The position numbers and the translations under genes were made by a program. DNA of 45,701 nt, taken from NCBI GenBank assembly GCA_016927815.1, contig JAFGLY010000041.1:1-45701 (forward strand), in the 5' to 3' direction. The notes under the pieces were generated by a model. That model made no database searches. It was given only the letters and a program-made list of their open reading frames with translations, and was not told the origin of the DNA. Below, in pieces: positions 13,338 to 32,847 of the stretch; position 1 is the first letter of the stretch; each line of letters begins with the position of its first letter. This DNA is from Deltaproteobacteria bacterium. GTDB lineage: Bacteria; Myxococcota_A; UBA796; JAFGLY01.

Positions 13338-15353
13338 CTAGGAGCAGGACAGGCGCCCGCCCCTCAGCATGCAGCGGGTCTGGCCGCCCGTGGCGGGCAC
13401 CGTCACCTGGGTGGACAACGGTACGGGGCCCTCCAGGAGCATCCGGCAGGTCCCTGGGGGCACCTGGAACGTGACCACGGACTCGCCCGCGGTCAGGGTC
13501 CGGGCCTGCCGTACGCCCCGGCACTCCAGCACGACCTCCGCGATCGGCATGTCCGTGTCCAGCTTGACCTTGTAGGCCACACCCGCGGGCTCGCGTGGCC
13601 CGGGCAGGGCGATCCGGACCTGGCACCGATCCTCCACCAGCCCGTTCAGGTAGGCGATCTCGGAGTCCTCGCCGAGGCCTTCGAGCCGGTCCCGCCAGGT
13701 ATCCAGCGGCGCCCCGCACCCGGACCTGTCCATCGCGTCGGCCACGAGCATGTCGTCGCTCCAGGCCATGAGCGCGCGGGCCTTCTGGACGTTGTGGGGG
13801 TCGGCCTCGAGCATCCAGCCCACCGTGGTGGCGACCACCTGCTCGCGGGGGCGAGCGTCGAGGGCATCCGTCCAGGTGATCCGGAGCCGGACCCGGTCCC
13901 GAGGTTTCAGGGTGGCCGGGTTCACGCGCACGTCCTGCAGGAAGAGCTGGGTGGTCCCCGCGTAGTAGTGGATGGGCTGGACATCCTCGGCGCGGCGACT
14001 GGACTCCTCGCCGTAGAAGCGGAGCATGGCGAGGCTGTCGGGCAGCTCCAGGGCGAACCGGACGTCGTGCGCGATGGTGCGGGTGAGGGCCTCGAAACCC
14101 AGACCGAACACCCGGTCCACGACGGCCTCGCTGCCCAGGTAGACATAGGCGCCCTTGCCCTTCTCGGTGAGCATGTCGAGCACGGTGTCGTTGAACCGGC
14201 GACCCACGCCGATGCCCGTGAGGCGGATGTCGTGTGCGTCCAGGGCCCGTCCCACCTCGGTGACCACGTCGGGCCTCACGTCCCCGGTGTTGAGCCAGGC
14301 ATCGGTGAGCAGGAGCACCCGCTCGTTGCGCTGGCCCCGGGTGTCCGGCGCGTACCTGTGGGCCAGGGCGTAGCCCTCCTTCAGCCCGAGGTCGAGGTTG
14401 GTGGCGCCTCGAGGACGCAGGTCCGAGATCGCGCGGTCCAACAGCGCCGGGTCGTCCCGTCCCACCACGTAGTCCTCGAGCGGCGTGCAGACCCGGTCGT
14501 CGAAGAGCACGACGTTGACGCGGTCGCCATGGCGGAGGCTCTCGCTCATGACGTCGAGTCCGCGCTTGACGTACGCCATGCGTCCCTCGGCGGACATGGA
14601 TCCCGAACGGTCCACCACCACGGTGAGGTCGAGGGGCTGGCGGGGCGGATTGGCCCCTCGCACCGCGAGCGCGAGGCTCATGGCGTCGGGTCCGGTGCGT
14701 TCGGCACTGGCGAGCACCGAGAACATGCGCCCCTCGGAGACCGGCTCGGTGTCGAAGGAGAAGTAGTTGAGCAACTCGTGCGGCCGGACCTCGGCGACCG
14801 TGTAGGGCTGGTGGTTCTTCACGGCCCACAGGAGGCGCTGAGCCGAGGCCAGGCTCATGGAGTCGTCGTTCGAGAGGTGGATGGTGCCGCCCCACTCGAG
14901 GGCCGGGCCTCCCGGACGCGCCGGAGGAGGCCGGACGGGCTCGACGAAGCGGGCCTCGTCCTTCTCCACGACCCCGCGCTCGGCGGGGGCGGCCGCCTCG
15001 TCGAGGACGGAAGCGTCCCAGGCGGCCTCTGGGATTCGAGCAGCCTCGTTGCCCGCCGCGGATTCCGCCACGGACGTCAGAGGAGCGGGAGACGCAGGGG
15101 CGGCGCTGCCCTTCCGGCTCCGGCCGATCTCGGGGTCGCGGCCATAGCAGTCCCGGACGATGGCCCGGCCGGGGGGAAGGGCCACGCTCGAGGGAGCCGG
15201 GGGCCAGAGCGGAACGGGGGCGGCCGCCTCCTCGAGGACCGAGGCGGCTCGTGTGGCGGGCTTCGCGAGGGCATCGCCGGTGTCCTCGATCCCGTGGAAG
15301 GGTTCCCGGCAACCGAACAGGACCAGGAGGGGCAGGAGAAGCGGACGGAGCAT
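13338..15353 (-). CDS. VWA-domain lipoprotein, YfbK/Ca-activated channel-like
   Basis: 671 aa; GGAGG lies before the ATG at 15353. The signal ends in LVLFGC with lipidation at Cys15, then EDTG at 23-26. Residues 155-205 match the VWA-associated N-terminal region of YfbK-like proteins (TIHLSNDDSMSLAS, HELLNYFSFD). The VWA domain follows from about 240 with an intact MIDAS, DRSGSM at 248-253, and a GATNLDLGL segment carrying the later metal threonine. The remaining C-terminus is beta-rich and ends with Cys residues. An odd internal duplication is ASVLEEAAAPV (37-47) and ASVLDEAAAPA (115-125) in the low-complexity linker. Family members are surface or periplasmic adhesion/complex-assembly proteins of uncertain role. 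It sits downstream of another VWA-type lipoprotein gene on the same strand. Confidence 0.88.
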   Translation of the reverse strand: MLRPLLLPLLVLFGCREPFHGIEDTGDALAKPATRAASVLEEAAAPVPLWPPAPSSVALPPGRAIVRDCYGRDPEIGRSRKGSAAPASPAPLTSVAESAAGNEAARIPEAAWDASVLDEAAAPAERGVVEKDEARFVEPVRPPPARPGGPALEWGGTIHLSNDDSMSLASAQRLLWAVKNHQPYTVAEVRPHELLNYFSFDTEPVSEGRMFSVLASAERTGPDAMSLALAVRGANPPRQPLDLTVVVDRSGSMSAEGRMAYVKRGLDVMSESLRHGDRVNVVLFDDRVCTPLEDYVVGRDDPALLDRAISDLRPRGATNLDLGLKEGYALAHRYAPDTRGQRNERVLLLTDAWLNTGDVRPDVVTEVGRALDAHDIRLTGIGVGRRFNDTVLDMLTEKGKGAYVYLGSEAVVDRVFGLGFEALTRTIAHDVRFALELPDSLAMLRFYGEESSRRAEDVQPIHYYAGTTQLFLQDVRVNPATLKPRDRVRLRITWTDALDARPREQVVATTVGWMLEADPHNVQKARALMAWSDDMLVADAMDRSGCGAPLDTWRDRLEGLGEDSEIAYLNGLVEDRCQVRIALPGPREPAGVAYKVKLDTDMPIAEVVLECRGVRQARTLTAGESVVTFQVPPGTCRMLLEGPVPLSTQVTVPATGGQTRCMLRGGRLSCS

Positions 15354-15453: not shown

Positions 15454-15490
15454 CTGCAGCCTACAGCCTACAGCCTACAGCCTACAGCCT
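15454..15490 (-). repeat. GGCTGTA heptad tandem array (4 perfect, 1 degenerate)
   Basis: On the plus strand CTACAGC occurs four times in perfect tandem (15461-15488), preceded by one CTGCAGC (15454-15460) and followed by a partial unit. On the minus strand it reads GGCTGTA repeated, starting inside the last codons of the ASH/VWA lipoprotein gene and running downstream. The same heptad occurs twice more within 3 kb, at 17981 and 18252. Because 7 is not a multiple of 3 and each unit junction contains TAG, three or more units place TAG in all three frames of one strand. Confidence 0.9.
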
Positions 15491-17109
15491 ATTTCGTCGC
15501 AGGGGCCTTCCAGCGCATAGCTGATCGTGACCGTGGAGCCGGGGGTCGGGGCCGAGCCCTCGTGGAAACGGAGCGCGTTCTCGTCCTCCGACCAGCTCCA
15601 GCCCTCCTGGGGGGTGCTCCCGTCCACCTGGACCTGCACCGTGCCCGGGACCGGCGTCTGGGACAACGGCCAGGCGGCCTCGGCCGGATCGCCCGCAGCC
15701 GAGTCGATGATCGCCTCGGCGAGCCCGGCCAGCGATCCGTCCCAGTCGACCGTGCACAGGGAGACGAACCCCCCGCCGGTGGCCTCGGCCGCCGAGTGGA
15801 AGCGCAGGTAGGCCTCCATGTCGGGGCAGGGGTCGTCGGGATCGCTCCCGATCCCGTGGAACGCGACCTGGGAGAGGTCGAACGTGCGGCCCTGGAAGGA
15901 GGAGACCCACCACTCCCACTCGGGGGTGGAGCGCTCCTCGACGTGGCTCACACCGACGAGGTGCATCCCGGCACGGTCCCGGAGGAGCGCTGCGTTGCAG
16001 CCCTCCGGTCCGAGGGCCTCTGTCGAGAGGGCCAGGTCCAGCAGGCGGAAGGCCTGCTGGGCGTACACTCCGGCCCGGACCTCCAGCATCGCCGCCACGC
16101 CGTCTGCTACGGTTTCGGGCTCGGCTCCGGCCGACAGGTAGGGGAGCGCCCCTTCCACGCACCCGTCGTCGTCGGCCACCACGGCCAGCCGCCAGTCGGC
16201 GCCGGCCGCGTCCAGGGCAGCTGTCAGGGTGCCGACATGAGCGACGAGAGCCTCGTTCCAGGCGTCCATCTCGGGCGAGGCGTCCACGGCGGCGATCACG
16301 TCGACCAGGGCGGACGGGAAAGTCCAGGTGTCGAGGCCCTGGCCCCACAGCTCCCCCCGGGCCGACAACGGCAGTGCGACCTCGGGGTTCTGGGGATCGT
16401 TCGTCTCGATGTAGACGAAGCCGTGGTCGGACGAGCTGTCGAGCGGTGCGTAGACGACCCGGCCGAGGGTCATCCCCTCCCCGGGCGCCAGGGACCAGGG
16501 CAGGGGCCCGTTGGAGGCGATGTCCGGCTCCAGGTCCATCTCGGCCGAGGGGGACTCGAGGTACACGGACGTCACCCAAAGCTCACGGTTGCCGCCGTTC
16601 GCGACCCAGACCGGATGATCGGCGGCACACCCCACCTGGACCGTCCCGAGGTCCAGAGCGTCGGGGTCCACGATGAGCCACGGCGCGAGACCCTCGCCCG
16701 TGAGCACGACCGATCGCATGGGGTCGACAGGATCGGTGCTCTCGATCACCAGCTCCTCCCGGGCGAAGCCGCTGATCACCGGGGTGAAGGAGATGTGGAG
16801 ACGGGCTCGCTCGCCGGGTTGGAGGAGGAGGTCGCCCTCGGGTCGGGTGCCAAACGCGGGCGTGGTACCGACCACCTCGGCGGACACGATGGACAGGGAA
16901 CGCCCGCCGGTGTTGTAGAGGATGAGGTCGGCCCGGCTGGACTCGCCTACGGCCACGGGTCCGAAGTCCAGGGCCGTGGCCGAGATCGCGAGCCGGGGAT
17001 CCTCGTGGGTCTCGTCCTCGGCGCACAGGAAGCAGACGCTGTGCACGTCGCAGCCCCCCTGGAGGAGGACCGCGGCAAGGAAGCACTCGACGAGACGCGG
17101 GGCGGGCAT
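15475..17109 (-). CDS. Choice-of-anchor (ASH-like) plus VWA-like lipoprotein, paralogue 1
   Basis: 544 aa from the ATG at 17109. The N-terminus is a short lipoprotein signal with lipidation at Cys20. Two immunoglobulin-like ASH/choice-of-anchor D domains follow at about 42-140 and 146-253 (ALDFGPVAVGES, ALDLGTVQVGCAA, ETNDPQNPEVALPL). A VWA-like domain starts near 268, but its MIDAS is altered to DASPEM (Asp276, Ser278, then Pro-Glu), so metal-dependent ligand binding may be lost. A C-terminal beta domain starts at PVPGTVQVQVDG. The whole plan is shared with the gene at 31267-32847. The last four residues, GCRL, and the stop are encoded by the heptad array, whereas the paralogue stops about where this tail begins. 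A surface lipoprotein is inferred; its ligand is unknown. Confidence 0.85.
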   Translation of the reverse strand: MPAPRLVECFLAAVLLQGGCDVHSVCFLCAEDETHEDPRLAISATALDFGPVAVGESSRADLILYNTGGRSLSIVSAEVVGTTPAFGTRPEGDLLLQPGERARLHISFTPVISGFAREELVIESTDPVDPMRSVVLTGEGLAPWLIVDPDALDLGTVQVGCAADHPVWVANGGNRELWVTSVYLESPSAEMDLEPDIASNGPLPWSLAPGEGMTLGRVVYAPLDSSSDHGFVYIETNDPQNPEVALPLSARGELWGQGLDTWTFPSALVDVIAAVDASPEMDAWNEALVAHVGTLTAALDAAGADWRLAVVADDDGCVEGALPYLSAGAEPETVADGVAAMLEVRAGVYAQQAFRLLDLALSTEALGPEGCNAALLRDRAGMHLVGVSHVEERSTPEWEWWVSSFQGRTFDLSQVAFHGIGSDPDDPCPDMEAYLRFHSAAEATGGGFVSLCTVDWDGSLAGLAEAIIDSAAGDPAEAAWPLSQTPVPGTVQVQVDGSTPQEGWSWSEDENALRFHEGSAPTPGSTVTISYALEGPCDEIGCRL

Positions 17110-17295: not shown

Positions 17296-17988
17296 GTGAG
17301 CCCTCCTTACGAGCCTGCACCCCCGCACCGGGAGATCGGTCCCACCCTCGCACGCTCGTGGGAACTCTTCAAGGAGCACGCCGGGATCCTGCTCGGTGCC
17401 ACCCTCACGATCGGGGTCGCCAGCGGCGTGCTCTCGGGGATCACGCAGATCGTCCAGGCCCTCCTGCAGCCGTCCGGGGAGGACGCGGCCCGGGCCCTGC
17501 CCGGTTTGGTGGGCCTCCTCCTGGCCCTCCTCTCCTGGGTCGTCCAGACCTTCCTCACCCTGGGCTACGTCCGTCTCCTGCTCCACGGGGTACGGGGCGA
17601 GCCGGCTGCGTTCGGGGACCTCTTCACGGCCGCTCCGGTCCTCGTCCCCGGCCTGGTGGCGGGCCTCCTCGTGGGTCTGGCCACGCTCGCCGGGACCTGC
17701 CTCCTCGTCGTTCCCGGGGTCGTGGTGGCCCTGGGCACGCTGTGGGTGAACTGGGTGCTCGTCGATCAGGGCCTCGGACCCATCGAGGCCGTGCGGGAGT
17801 CCTGGCGGCTGGCGAACGGGGAGAAGGGACACCTCTTCCTGTGGGTTCTGGTGGCCTGCGTCGTGGCGATCGTCGGGCTGCTCGCCTGCGGCGTGGGCCT
17901 GCTGGTGGCCCTGCCCGTCCTCGGCCTCGGGACCACGATCCTCTACGACGACCGGGTCCGGTCGAAGCGAAGGGATGGCAGGCTGTAG
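17296..17988 (+). CDS. Multi-pass membrane protein, YciC/DUF975-like
   Basis: 230 aa from the GTG at 17296; an in-frame ATG at 17242 would add 18 Arg-rich residues but overlaps a likely -10 box. After a Pro-rich N-terminus (SPPYEPAPPHREIG) come a REIGPTLARSWELFKEH amphipathic helix and about five hydrophobic segments rich in Leu, Val and Gly. The motif VVPGVVVALGTLWVNWVLVDQG, then GPIEAVRESW, fits the family of small membrane proteins annotated DUF975, YciC or glycerophosphodiester phosphodiesterase membrane domain, whose function is mostly unknown. The last two residues, Arg-Leu, and the TAG stop are encoded by the heptad repeat at 17981, suggesting the native C-terminus was replaced by an insertion. 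Confidence 0.75.
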   Translation: MSPPYEPAPPHREIGPTLARSWELFKEHAGILLGATLTIGVASGVLSGITQIVQALLQPSGEDAARALPGLVGLLLALLSWVVQTFLTLGYVRLLLHGVRGEPAAFGDLFTAAPVLVPGLVAGLLVGLATLAGTCLLVVPGVVVALGTLWVNWVLVDQGLGPIEAVRESWRLANGEKGHLFLWVLVACVVAIVGLLACGVGLLVALPVLGLGTTILYDDRVRSKRRDGRL

Positions 17989-17996
17989 GCTGTAGG
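17981..17996 (+). repeat. Left inverted heptad repeat, GGCTGTA twice
   Basis: The sequence GGCTGTAGGCTGTAGG at 17981-17996 is a perfect inverted match to 18252-18267, and the identity extends by one A (17980) to 17 bp. It overlaps the stop codon of the upstream membrane-protein gene (TAG at 17986-17988). Together the two repeats bound a fragment of a four-helix-bundle gene. Confidence 0.9.
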
Positions 17997-18021
17997 GGCG
18001 AGGCTCTCCCGGTACGGAACC

Positions 18022-18251
18022 GTGCGCGACCCTACGAAGCTACGAGCCTTCGAACGGGCAGACCGCCCAGCTCCCCCGCGGGGCGGTCTCGATCCCCTCG
18101 AACCTCGTCGAAGGGTGCGCCCGCAGCTCCGAAGCGGAATCCCTGCACTTCCTCGACGCCGCCTTCGCCTCGGCCGGGTGCATCGAGACGGGGAAGGCCC
18201 TCGTCGGCCTCCTGCGTACCCTGCGGACGGTGCGGCTCCTTCCTGCTCGAA
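18022..18251 (+). pseudogene. Decayed four-helix-bundle (S23-like) protein gene
   Basis: No intact gene fits this gap, but two short stretches in different frames match the S23/intervening-sequence four-helix-bundle family. The frame at 18037-18066 encodes KLRAFERADR, the typical N-terminal segment. The frame from 18062 encodes TAQLPRGAVSIPSNLVEGCA and then RSSEAESLHFLDAAFASAG, the family core (usual form RRAAVSIPSNIAEG, then a FL..A.GS helix). The roughly 20 residues normally between the two segments are missing, the frame is shifted, and the C-terminal helix is degenerate and runs into the heptad repeat without a stop. It is best read as an internally deleted remnant. In the family, intact proteins are about 115-125 aa, are often linked with mobile or repeated DNA, and have no settled function. 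Confidence 0.72.
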
Positions 18252-18267
18252 CCTACAGCCTACAGCC
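18252..18267 (-). repeat. Right inverted heptad repeat
   Basis: CCTACAGCCTACAGCC at 18252-18267 is the exact reverse complement of 17981-17996. It begins immediately downstream of the TAG stop (18270-18272, minus strand) of the FecR-TPR gene, so both repeats read GGCTGTA outward from the neighbouring gene's 3' end. Confidence 0.9.
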
Positions 18268-18269
18268 TC

Positions 18270-19379
18270 CTACCGGGGCAGGGCGGCGATCCGGTCTCGG
18301 ACGGCGGCCGCATCCGCACCTGAGAGCGTCGAGGCCCGCTCCAGCATCGCACGCGCACGGGGCGTGTCCATTACGGCCAGGCAGTCGGCGAGCTGGACCA
18401 GAAAGAGGGCGTCGTCGGGCGCCTCGATGACGAGGCGCTCCAGGTGCGGGATCGCGGCCGCGCAGCCGCCGGTGGTCCAGGCGAGGTGTGCGGCGAGACG
18501 GCGGATCTCGGTCCTGCGCAAGGGCAGACCGCCCTCGAGATAGCGCTCGGCGTCCGCGAGGGCTTCGGCGTCGCGGCCAAGGGAGGCGAGCGCGAGGATG
18601 CGCCGGGATGCGAACTCTCCGCGCCAGGCCTCCGGGGCCTCCAGGAGGAGGCCGGCGTCCGCGGTGATCAGGAGGTCGCTGGCCGATGCGCCCTCCGCCT
18701 CGAGGGCCGAGAGGCGGAGCAGCAGGCCGCCTGCGGTCGTGGGCAGGCAGGTGCGATGGGTGCCGCCGGAGAGGATCACCTCCTCGCCGCCGAGGCACCT
18801 CAAAGCCACCCGGCCGTGGTCCACCCCGACACGGGTGCCCAGAGCGTCGCGCGTCACGGAGAAGGCCGTGCCTACGACGAGCACCTCGGCCTCACGGGTC
18901 TCCACGACGAGGGCCACGCCCCGGTCCGGATCCACCCGGACGTCGAGGGTGCCGGACTCCCAGAGGATCCTCGGGGACCGCTCGTCGCCGGTGACCCGAC
19001 CGCTGCCCTGGAAGCCCAGCAAGACGGCGGGTGCGGGCTCGGCCAGGATCCACTCGCTCTCGGAGGCGAGGGCGACGGCCAGCGGCTCCGGTGCGTGCGG
19101 GCGGAGGCCGAACACGAGGACGACGGCGGCGGCGGTCGCGACGACGGCGAGGCCCAGTGCGGGGGCCAGGCGGGAGGGGGCGGGTGCGGGAGCGTCCAGG
19201 CGGGCCCGGACACGGGCCTCGGCGCCCTCGGCGGGCTCGGGCAGGGCGCGGAGCAGCGTGCGGACGACGTGCGGATCCGGTTCGGCGTTCGCGAGGCGTC
19301 TTTGGACGCGTCGCACCGCGAACGGAGAAGGCTCGGTCTCGCGCAGGAAGCGGCGGAGGATCTCAAGGAAGGGCTTCAT
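18270..19379 (-). CDS. FecR-like membrane regulator with C-terminal TPR region
   Basis: 369 aa, ATG at 19379, overlapping the sigma factor gene by 17 nt. Residues 1-60 are helical and Arg/Glu-rich and would be cytoplasmic. A transmembrane segment spans about 71-92. Residues 105-215 resemble the FecR beta domain (SGTLDVRVDPDRGVALVVET, VLVVGTAFSV, VDHGRVAL). From about 245 the sequence turns into helical TPR-like repeats (AEALADAERYLEGG, LERLVIEAPDDALFLVQLAD). FecR-type proteins transmit an extracytoplasmic signal to an ECF sigma factor and often act as its anti-sigma factor, which fits the coupling to the sigma gene. The TPR tail would contact a partner in the periplasm. The signal is unknown. 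Confidence 0.82.
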   Translation of the reverse strand: MKPFLEILRRFLRETEPSPFAVRRVQRRLANAEPDPHVVRTLLRALPEPAEGAEARVRARLDAPAPAPSRLAPALGLAVVATAAAVVLVFGLRPHAPEPLAVALASESEWILAEPAPAVLLGFQGSGRVTGDERSPRILWESGTLDVRVDPDRGVALVVETREAEVLVVGTAFSVTRDALGTRVGVDHGRVALRCLGGEEVILSGGTHRTCLPTTAGGLLLRLSALEAEGASASDLLITADAGLLLEAPEAWRGEFASRRILALASLGRDAEALADAERYLEGGLPLRRTEIRRLAAHLAWTTGGCAAAIPHLERLVIEAPDDALFLVQLADCLAVMDTPRARAMLERASTLSGADAAAVRDRIAALPR

Positions 19380-31266: not shown

Positions 31267-32847
31267 CTACGCGCAGTCGCCGTACTGAGCGTACGCGATC
31301 TCCACCGTGGCTCCGGTGGCGGGCTCTGCTCCCTTGTCGAAGGAGACGGCGTTCATCGTAGCGTCCCACCACCAGCCGTCGGTCTGCTCCACCCCGTCCA
31401 CGGCGACCGTGATCGTCCCCGGGACAGGTGCGCTGGAGAGCCGGAGCAGCTCCCCGGAGGCCGAGGCGGCGATGTCCGCAGCCCAGGACTCCAGATCCGT
31501 GGACCAGTCCGACGTGCAGATGGAGATGAAGGTGCCCCCGGTCGCCTCGACGGCCTCGTACATGCCGCTGTAGTACTCGGCCGTTGCGCAGCCCGAGGGG
31601 GAGGGGCCGCCGATGGCGTCGAAGATCACGTAGCTCGGGTTGGGCCGCAGGGACTGGAACCAAGCCACGTACTCGCTGTAGGGGGCCTTGGACTGCTCCC
31701 GCTGGTCCGACAGGCCCGCCAGGTGCCAGGTGGCGTCGTCCCGCAGGAGTCCCTCGTTGCAGCCCTTGGGGACGGATGCGTTCACGGTGGCCTGGAGGAG
31801 CGTGAAGGCCTGGTGGTTGCAGACGCCCGAACCGGCCCAGTGGACCATGTCACCGAGAGCCGCACGGGCCTGGGTCGTCGAGTACGTGGTGTCGATCCAG
31901 AGGGGAGGCCCGTTGATGCAGCCGTCGTCCTCCACTGTGACGGAGAAGCGCCAGTCGAGCGCAGCCGCGTCCAGGGCGGACATGAAGGAGGACAAGGCGT
32001 TGTAGAGGTACCAGTACTCGTAGTACATCGAGGAGGACCGGTCGAAGGCGAGGAGGATGTCCACGACCCCGATTCCGCTCCAGACGAACGTGTCGGTGCC
32101 CCAGGACGCCACCGCGGCGGTCGCCCCGACGTTGACCTGGTGGAAGGGGCCATCGACGTGTTGGAGGAAGACCTGGAGCAGGCCGGAGTCGCTGCCCGGG
32201 TCCTCGGGCGTGTAGGCCAGGCCCACCTCGACCGACCCGCCCGGTGCGAGCGTAGGCGGAAGGACCGGCATCTCGGAGATGGCCATCTCCCCCTCGGAGG
32301 GGAGGATTTCGATGGACGCCAGCCTGAGGATCCCACCGCCGGTGTTCGTGAGCGTGACGACGGTCTCGTCGGTGCAGCCGAGCAGCGTGTCCGTGAACAC
32401 GATCGGGTCGGGATTCGCGGTGATCGCGCCCCCGTGGCCGGTGCCCGAGAGGCTCACCTCGGCCACGGGTTCGTCCGGGTCGTCGGAACTCACGGCGATG
32501 GAGGCCGTGTAGTCGGTGCCCTCGAGGGGTGCGAACGAGACCCGCACGGAGGTGGACGTGCCGGGTTCGACCACGAGGTAGGCCGGGGTGGACACCGAGA
32601 ACACGGACCAGGGATCGTCCAGGACCACACTCAGGATGTGCAGCGCCCCGTCGCCGTCGTTCCGGATCCCAAATTCCTGGGTGGGGGGGTCGCCGCCCAC
32701 GAGATCCACCTCACCGAAGGACAGGTCATCGGGAACCAGGACGATGTCGGGTCGGGGGGTGGGGCCGATGGGACCCTCGGGGCCGGTGTCCTCGACGACC
32801 TGGGGGTGGCACGCGGCGAGCAACAGGACCAGGGGCAGGGGGATCAT
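31267..32847 (-). CDS. Choice-of-anchor (ASH-like) plus VWA lipoprotein, paralogue 2
   Basis: 526 aa, ATG at 32847 with GGAGG upstream. The lipobox is LLLAAC with Cys13, followed by EDTG at 19-22. ASH-like domains span about 35-137 and 143-245 (DLSFGEVDLVGGDPP, SDDPDEPVAEVSLSG, VVTLTNTGGGILRL). A VWA domain begins near 262 with an intact MIDAS, DRSSSM at 269-274, unlike the paralogue at 15475-17109. The later segments parallel that paralogue: DWRF followed by EDDGCINGP, KGCNEGLLRDDATWHL against the other gene's EGCNAALLRDRAGMHL, and the C-terminal PVPGTITVAVDGV. It ends at DCA, earlier than the paralogue, whose extra tail comes from the heptad array. The protein is probably at the outer surface. 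Confidence 0.88.
   Translation of the reverse strand: MIPLPLVLLLAACHPQVVEDTGPEGPIGPTPRPDIVLVPDDLSFGEVDLVGGDPPTQEFGIRNDGDGALHILSVVLDDPWSVFSVSTPAYLVVEPGTSTSVRVSFAPLEGTDYTASIAVSSDDPDEPVAEVSLSGTGHGGAITANPDPIVFTDTLLGCTDETVVTLTNTGGGILRLASIEILPSEGEMAISEMPVLPPTLAPGGSVEVGLAYTPEDPGSDSGLLQVFLQHVDGPFHQVNVGATAAVASWGTDTFVWSGIGVVDILLAFDRSSSMYYEYWYLYNALSSFMSALDAAALDWRFSVTVEDDGCINGPPLWIDTTYSTTQARAALGDMVHWAGSGVCNHQAFTLLQATVNASVPKGCNEGLLRDDATWHLAGLSDQREQSKAPYSEYVAWFQSLRPNPSYVIFDAIGGPSPSGCATAEYYSGMYEAVEATGGTFISICTSDWSTDLESWAADIAASASGELLRLSSAPVPGTITVAVDGVEQTDGWWWDATMNAVSFDKGAEPATGATVEIAYAQYGDCA

Follow-up and report, generated by a model that had tools for sequence, protein, structure and literature searches.

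A heptad array at the end of a lipoprotein gene as the probable solo arm of a small S23-carrying element outside rRNA

The heptad array at positions 15457-15491 of the window (the whole stretch of DNA that was analysed, 45,701 nt) is probably the solo arm of a small selfish element that resembles the intervening sequences (IVS) of 23S rRNA and resides outside rRNA. With a length of about 0.3-0.55 kb, the full element would consist of a heptad array, a gene for a four-helix-bundle protein of the S23/23S_rRNA_IVP family, and the same array in inverted orientation. It would settle directly downstream of a stop codon, so that the protein of the host gene is kept. An arm landing on or just before the stop codon would reclose the reading frame within a few codons owing to a unit with TAG in every frame, as in the lipoprotein gene described here. 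Cores may subsequently decay and vanish, leaving solo arms such as that at 15457-15491.

The heptad array at the end of the lipoprotein gene

The array comprises five perfect copies (TRF: 5.0 copies, 100% match) of a unit that reads CAGCCTA on the plus strand and TAGGCTG, or GGCTGTA in another phase, on the minus strand, which is the strand of the lipoprotein gene. A degenerate copy, GGCTGCA, is located at its far end. Two-unit matches with up to 2 mismatches occur six times in the window, compared to 0.10 expected by chance. The lipoprotein gene (15475-17109, minus strand) contains HYDIN/ASH Ig-like domains (PF22544, 1.5e-14) and ends with GAC GAA ATA GGC TGT AGG CTG TAG. Thus, the residues I-G-C-R-L and the stop codon (15475-15492, with TAG at 15475-15477) lie inside or at the edge of the array. 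This agrees with the original prediction that the codons for GCRL and the TAG are derived from the repeats, and extends the tail by the isoleucine. The array had been placed at 15454-15490 in a gene of ASH/VWA type; its position has to be corrected slightly, and only the ASH assignment stood, since Pfam found no VWA domain in 15475-17109 and the VWA matches fall in the neighboring gene 13338-15353. As also predicted, and as can be read directly from the sequence, the unit offers TAG in all three frames of one strand, and the opposite strand is free of stops. An alternative lipoprotein stop at +5, chosen by coding potential instead of that at +12, was rejected since homology favors 15475. No core of an S23 element was detectable beside this array.

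The alignment with a paralogue of the lipoprotein gene (31267-32847, minus strand, open frame to 33168) extends to residue 537 of the lipoprotein; the paralogue terminates one residue further on, with ...YAQYGDCA and a stop as compared to ...YALEGPCDEIGCRL and a stop. It therefore ends about where the tail begins, as had been proposed. Homologues of the family were present in 39 out of 39 genomes searched. Their readable ends in relatives are mostly located 1-3 residues past the same conserved Cys (GDCSE, GDCEG, GECSG, GDCSS and GNCSE, each followed by a stop), and one copy of the same family ends differently, in WPEDCSAP. At several other loci the alignment overruns the stop and continues as frame noise, and the printed stop symbol served to define the end; L410, a weak alignment with a GCRL-like stretch beyond the family block, was left out of the count. 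The IGCRL tail was found in no confidently read homologue end among the relatives' loci, and no orthologue with the GCRL tail and without the array was encountered among the ends read. Because paralogue and homologues end without GCRL, the IGCRL tail appears to be private to this gene and array-derived, which supports the view that the array arrived late and supplied the gene end. Annotators should bear in mind a possible repeat origin for unusual C-terminal tails such as GCRL.

Placement of the arrays behind stop codons

In the genome (4.0 Mb, 216 contigs, 97% complete), 35 arrays of at least 2 exact units were found, and none for a reversed-unit control. Gene ends are model-based; they were called from codon log-odds, for which 188 long ORFs of the same genome served as the training set. 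According to these calls, in 28 out of 30 testable arrays the start lies no more than 15 nt from the stop codon of a gene in the same sense (random positions: 2.6%), whereas in antisense a convergent stop at the other end of the array was found in 3 out of 30. The expected enrichment at 3'-ends with the TAG pointing outwards was therefore observed, and the orientation relative to genes is not random. The stop codon is located at exactly -5 in 15 of the 30 arrays, the boundary reading stop-N-A followed by GGCTGTA in nearly all of these, and at -4 in one; for 12 others, the gene terminates inside the array or at its edge. For one array (L038), a TAG located 54 nt further upstream is an equally possible gene end and has the higher score. 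Since a sense array closes any frame entering it, stops inside the array cannot by themselves prove a 3'-end position. The 16 out of 28 arrays that stand directly behind a native TAG or TGA (-5 or -4) are free of this bias and establish the placement. A plain TRR target motif was also considered (TAG, TGA or TGG at -5 in 19 out of 32), but it fails to explain that nearly all of the TAG and TGA are true sense stops.

The TAG-bearing unit had been suggested as the reason why insertions at 3'-ends are tolerated. It does aid tolerance, but it is not the general rule, because a native stop precedes those 16 arrays and many other units are stop-free. The arms GTCAGAG, GGCCAGC and GTTCTTG of related elements, for instance, contain no stop when read inwards.

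For nine of the 35 arrays the distance to a contig end is about 110 nt or less (C41, C57, C77, C81, C83, C85, C91, C142 and C207); the assembly was probably interrupted there by longer arrays or by repeated elements. A frame resembling a transposase fragment begins about 130 nt past one solo array (L046, from 6082 onward, contig C106).

Plain slippage of the polymerase at random sites, with purifying selection sparing arrays at gene ends in the harmless orientation, would be a simple origin of such repeats. Simple repeats with heptad units occur frequently in bacterial genomes (PMC4692102; see also the literature compiled in PMC4679880), and an in-array TAG would be harmful in the middle of a gene in the sense direction. 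However, stop-free antisense arrays should then be tolerated within genes, yet nearly all arrays are in sense at a gene end. Furthermore, a single unit family accounts for all heptad arrays in the 461 kb examined, of which the contigs sampled regardless of arrays contained none, and neither the recurrent spacing of exactly -5 nor the inverted pairs with an S23 core described below are explained. We regard slippage as highly improbable.

S23 genes between inverted arrays

The window itself contains a decayed element. A membrane-protein-like gene with a presumed GTG start (17296-17988, plus strand, coding score 19.7) ends in ...RRDGRL and a TAG provided by the array (stop at +5 of the array). 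The left arm (17980-17996, plus strand) consists of 2.4 copies of AGGCTGT detected by TRF and in the sequence. It is followed by a core (17997-18251) with remnants of a plus-strand 23S_rRNA_IVP gene, which matched PF05635 (E 2.8e-8; 35.7 bits, cut-off 33.8) and our own profile (6.8e-15, about 18017-18262). The right, inverted arm (18252-18268, minus strand; TRF) and the left arm form base pairs in the predicted RNA. Beyond the right arm, a gene with weak FecR similarity in Pfam (18270-19379, minus strand) ends with its own TAG (18270-18272), with N-A between this stop (at -5) and the array. The two arrays hence face each other across 255 nt, each at the end of another gene. The original prediction missed such inverted pairs around an S23 (23S_rRNA_IVP) gene; what arrives would be an element of which the array is one arm.

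The window core shares 82-89% DNA identity, in pieces, with the core of an intact element (L047, contig C115). There, a TAG stop precedes degenerate heptads, and an S23 frame of 129 aa separates these from inverted heptads, which are followed by the stop of a convergent gene. The intact protein belongs to the S23/23S_rRNA_IVP family, with profile matches above cut-off (PF05635 8.2e-31; TIGR02436 107.9 bits, cut-off 24), and matched PDB 2gsc (1.3e-20). Together with two further decayed cores between inverted arms (L034 and L052), four loci of the genome show this architecture, one of them intact. GGCTGTA arms are absent at four other S23 fragments of the genome. No S23 core is detectable at 27 out of 35 arrays; such solo arrays, tied to the elements only by unit identity and placement, would descend from whole elements.

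Inverted arrays are not restricted to this genome. The GGCTGTA array was not found in 38 order relatives searched; S23 genes of these relatives can have arms of their own, such as GTCAGAG x4 ... TCTGACC x4, GGCCAGC ... GCTGGCC, hexads and octads. Other genomes of the phylum provided 85 non-redundant S23 loci, among which an array was present on the left in 37, on the right in 43, and on both sides in 31, as opposed to 6, 9 and 0 out of 270 control windows of equal size from the same loci. Mutual inversion was found in 16 of the phylum pairs (rule: at most 1 mismatch). In other phyla, arrays were detected at 14 out of 28 S23 loci; in 6 of these they occurred on both sides, all 6 inverted and none direct. 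The corresponding controls gave 2 out of 18 for Y1-transposase genes, one-sided and none on both sides, and 0 out of 174 local windows with arrays on both sides. Array detection used a score of 13 and periods of 6-8 at first look, then a score of 14 and periods of 5-9, which were kept for the set from other phyla. At the threshold used, about 40-50% of the S23 loci outside this genome had no array. S23 loci of one genome are not independent, and the flank tests were mostly run on draft genomes.

Genomes chosen only for holding (GGCTGTA)3 contained PF05635 genes in 37 out of 40 cases; in the sample of the own phylum, for which a stricter cut-off was applied, 34 out of 189 genomes had S23 genes. 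For most of 117 GGCTGTA-heptad stretches in other phyla, no S23 gene was located within 700 nt. A long-ORF test on these stretches (47 sense versus 4 antisense) was discarded, as only the sense array has stops. In its replacement, which counted only stops starting before or at most 2 nt from the array edge, a long frame with a stop at the edge was found outside this genome in 15 out of 103 stretches versus 3.6%, and at up to 60% GC in 10 out of 41 versus 2.4%. Outside this genome, stop adjacency is thus moderate, enriched and not universal.

Several further arrangements were observed. Convergent S23 pairs, tail to tail about 20-130 nt apart and many with outer hexad arrays, occur in genomes G051, G151, G183, G193 and G198 (L276, L279, L282, L304, L306-L309, L311-L317). 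Inverted heptad arrays that lack an S23 gene and are separated by a short spacer, from a few nt up to about 30 nt (L071, L115, L127, L145, L155, L170), mostly from one Hydrogenedentes genome, look like core-less, hairpin-like derivatives. One relative (G022) has 24 S23 matches, many of them fragments at contig ends, with hexad arms GGGATC. A Histophilus somni record (L079, L117) holds (GGCTGTA)5-11 arrays in a genome without a PF05635 match at 1e-10; therefore, not every GGCTGTA array is tied to S23.

The heptad arrays could also form an independent family of 3'-end repeats, e.g. sites for an RNA- or DNA-binding protein, between which S23 genes merely gather. Most arrays are solo, and the strict sense orientation and exact stop spacing would suit a 3'-UTR signal. 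A regulatory role has been proposed by MacGregor for TAACTGA repeats, which are mostly located before start codons (PMC4679880). In other genomes, however, S23 genes are flanked by unrelated units, many pairs being mutually inverted, and this variation from element to element argues against a host signal, which would keep one sequence. The lack of the heptad in the 38 order relatives points in the same direction. We consider this alternative unlikely.

A site with and without an element was found within one genus of the phylum. The gap between an isochorismatase-like gene and a presumed alanine racemase gene (names assigned by reading the sequence) comprises 28-36 nt in G156 and G189 and is empty, whereas in G124 and G184 it holds an S23 element 0-8 nt past the stop codon. 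In two more species of the genus the flanks of the site are on different contigs. The site shows presence and absence of the element, gain and loss being indistinguishable without a tree. The S23 proteins of G124 and G184 are 69% identical, and their heptads are unrelated (GCGACGA and GAGCTTT; L262, L283), reflecting either unit turnover or two insertions at one site.

A wider proposition, towards which we lean only slightly, is that S23 genes of many phyla are carried as cargo by small mobile elements of a class not described before, each bounded by two arrays of a 6-8-nt unit in inverted orientation. Different elements would have different units, including elements that occupy one site in sister species, with the arms staying complementary, and the elements would target the first few nucleotides after a stop codon. 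The small, unexplained genes for S23/four-helix-bundle proteins are widely distributed among bacteria and have mostly been described from insertions in 23S rRNA. If carried by such elements, they would gain a concrete genetic unit, and many unexplained heptad repeats a likely origin. This would raise the question of how both repeat arms switch their unit together yet remain complementary.

S23 proteins are under purifying selection, with dN/dS of 0.05-0.18 in six pairs; the G124/G184 pair was saturated. In the predicted RNA fold of 17975-18275 (z = -4.5), as in that of the intact element (z -1.9), the arms are paired. RNase III excises known IVS from rRNA. In the 23S IVS of Coxiella, the S23 ORF is immediately preceded on its 5' side by tandem heptamers whose number varies (PMC4990558). 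On these grounds we favor an IVS-like element, whose insertions would be mild since they are placed behind stop codons. The paired arms would form an RNA hairpin cut by RNase III as in the 23S rRNA IVS, which may render the insertion mild in mRNA, and the S23 protein may bind the RNA of the element or its DNA form and thereby help its mobility.

Mobilization through RNA would be another route, if S23 had the role that Avd, a related protein, plays in diversity-generating retroelements, and if a reverse transcriptase were provided in trans. Homology between Avd and PF05635 has been noted (PMC10053308), and S23 matched the NCBIfam Avd model weakly (7.3e-8, 32.7 bits, cut-off 80). Against this, no PF00078 reverse transcriptase was found in this genome (G000, 97% complete) or in the S23-bearing genomes G210, G220, G200, G233, G184 and G025. 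Reverse transcriptases were present in 11 out of 18 S23-rich genomes versus 6 out of 10 genomes without a strong S23 hit, and without a difference between the two groups the helper is unsupported. A past or distant helper is possible, although we think a retroelement very unlikely.

Comparison with known systems

The IVS of 23S rRNA insert in helix 9, 25 or 45. The elements described here resemble those of Leptospira and Coxiella in their size of about 0.4 kb, the S23/23S_rRNA_IVP ORF, the terminal inverted repeats, and their sporadic presence. At four loci the inverted arms enclose an S23 ORF and are paired in predicted folds. In contrast to the 23S rRNA IVS, the elements are located behind stop codons of protein genes and not in rRNA helices, the window element and the intact copy each lying between two protein genes. 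Furthermore, their arms are short tandem repeats on both sides, which also occur alone. Cyanobacterial STRR heptads are likewise intergenic tandem heptads present in many copies.

TAACTGA heptamer arrays of Beggiatoaceae, Cyanobacteria and Bacteroidetes, mostly found just upstream of start codons (MacGregor 2015, PMC4679880), share with our arrays the genome-wide occurrence of short heptads, stops in all frames of one strand, and a patchy distribution suggesting horizontal spread. The unit here is TAGGCTG, located at and just behind stop codons, and the words "four helix", "S23" and "intervening" are absent from that paper. Avd accessory proteins are related four-helix-bundle proteins (PMC10053308); unlike in Avd systems, the search of this genome yielded no reverse transcriptase, and the match to the Avd model stays below its equivalog cut-off. 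Nothing nearer than the papers cited was found in the open-access literature, either for the repeat unit or for S23 outside rRNA.
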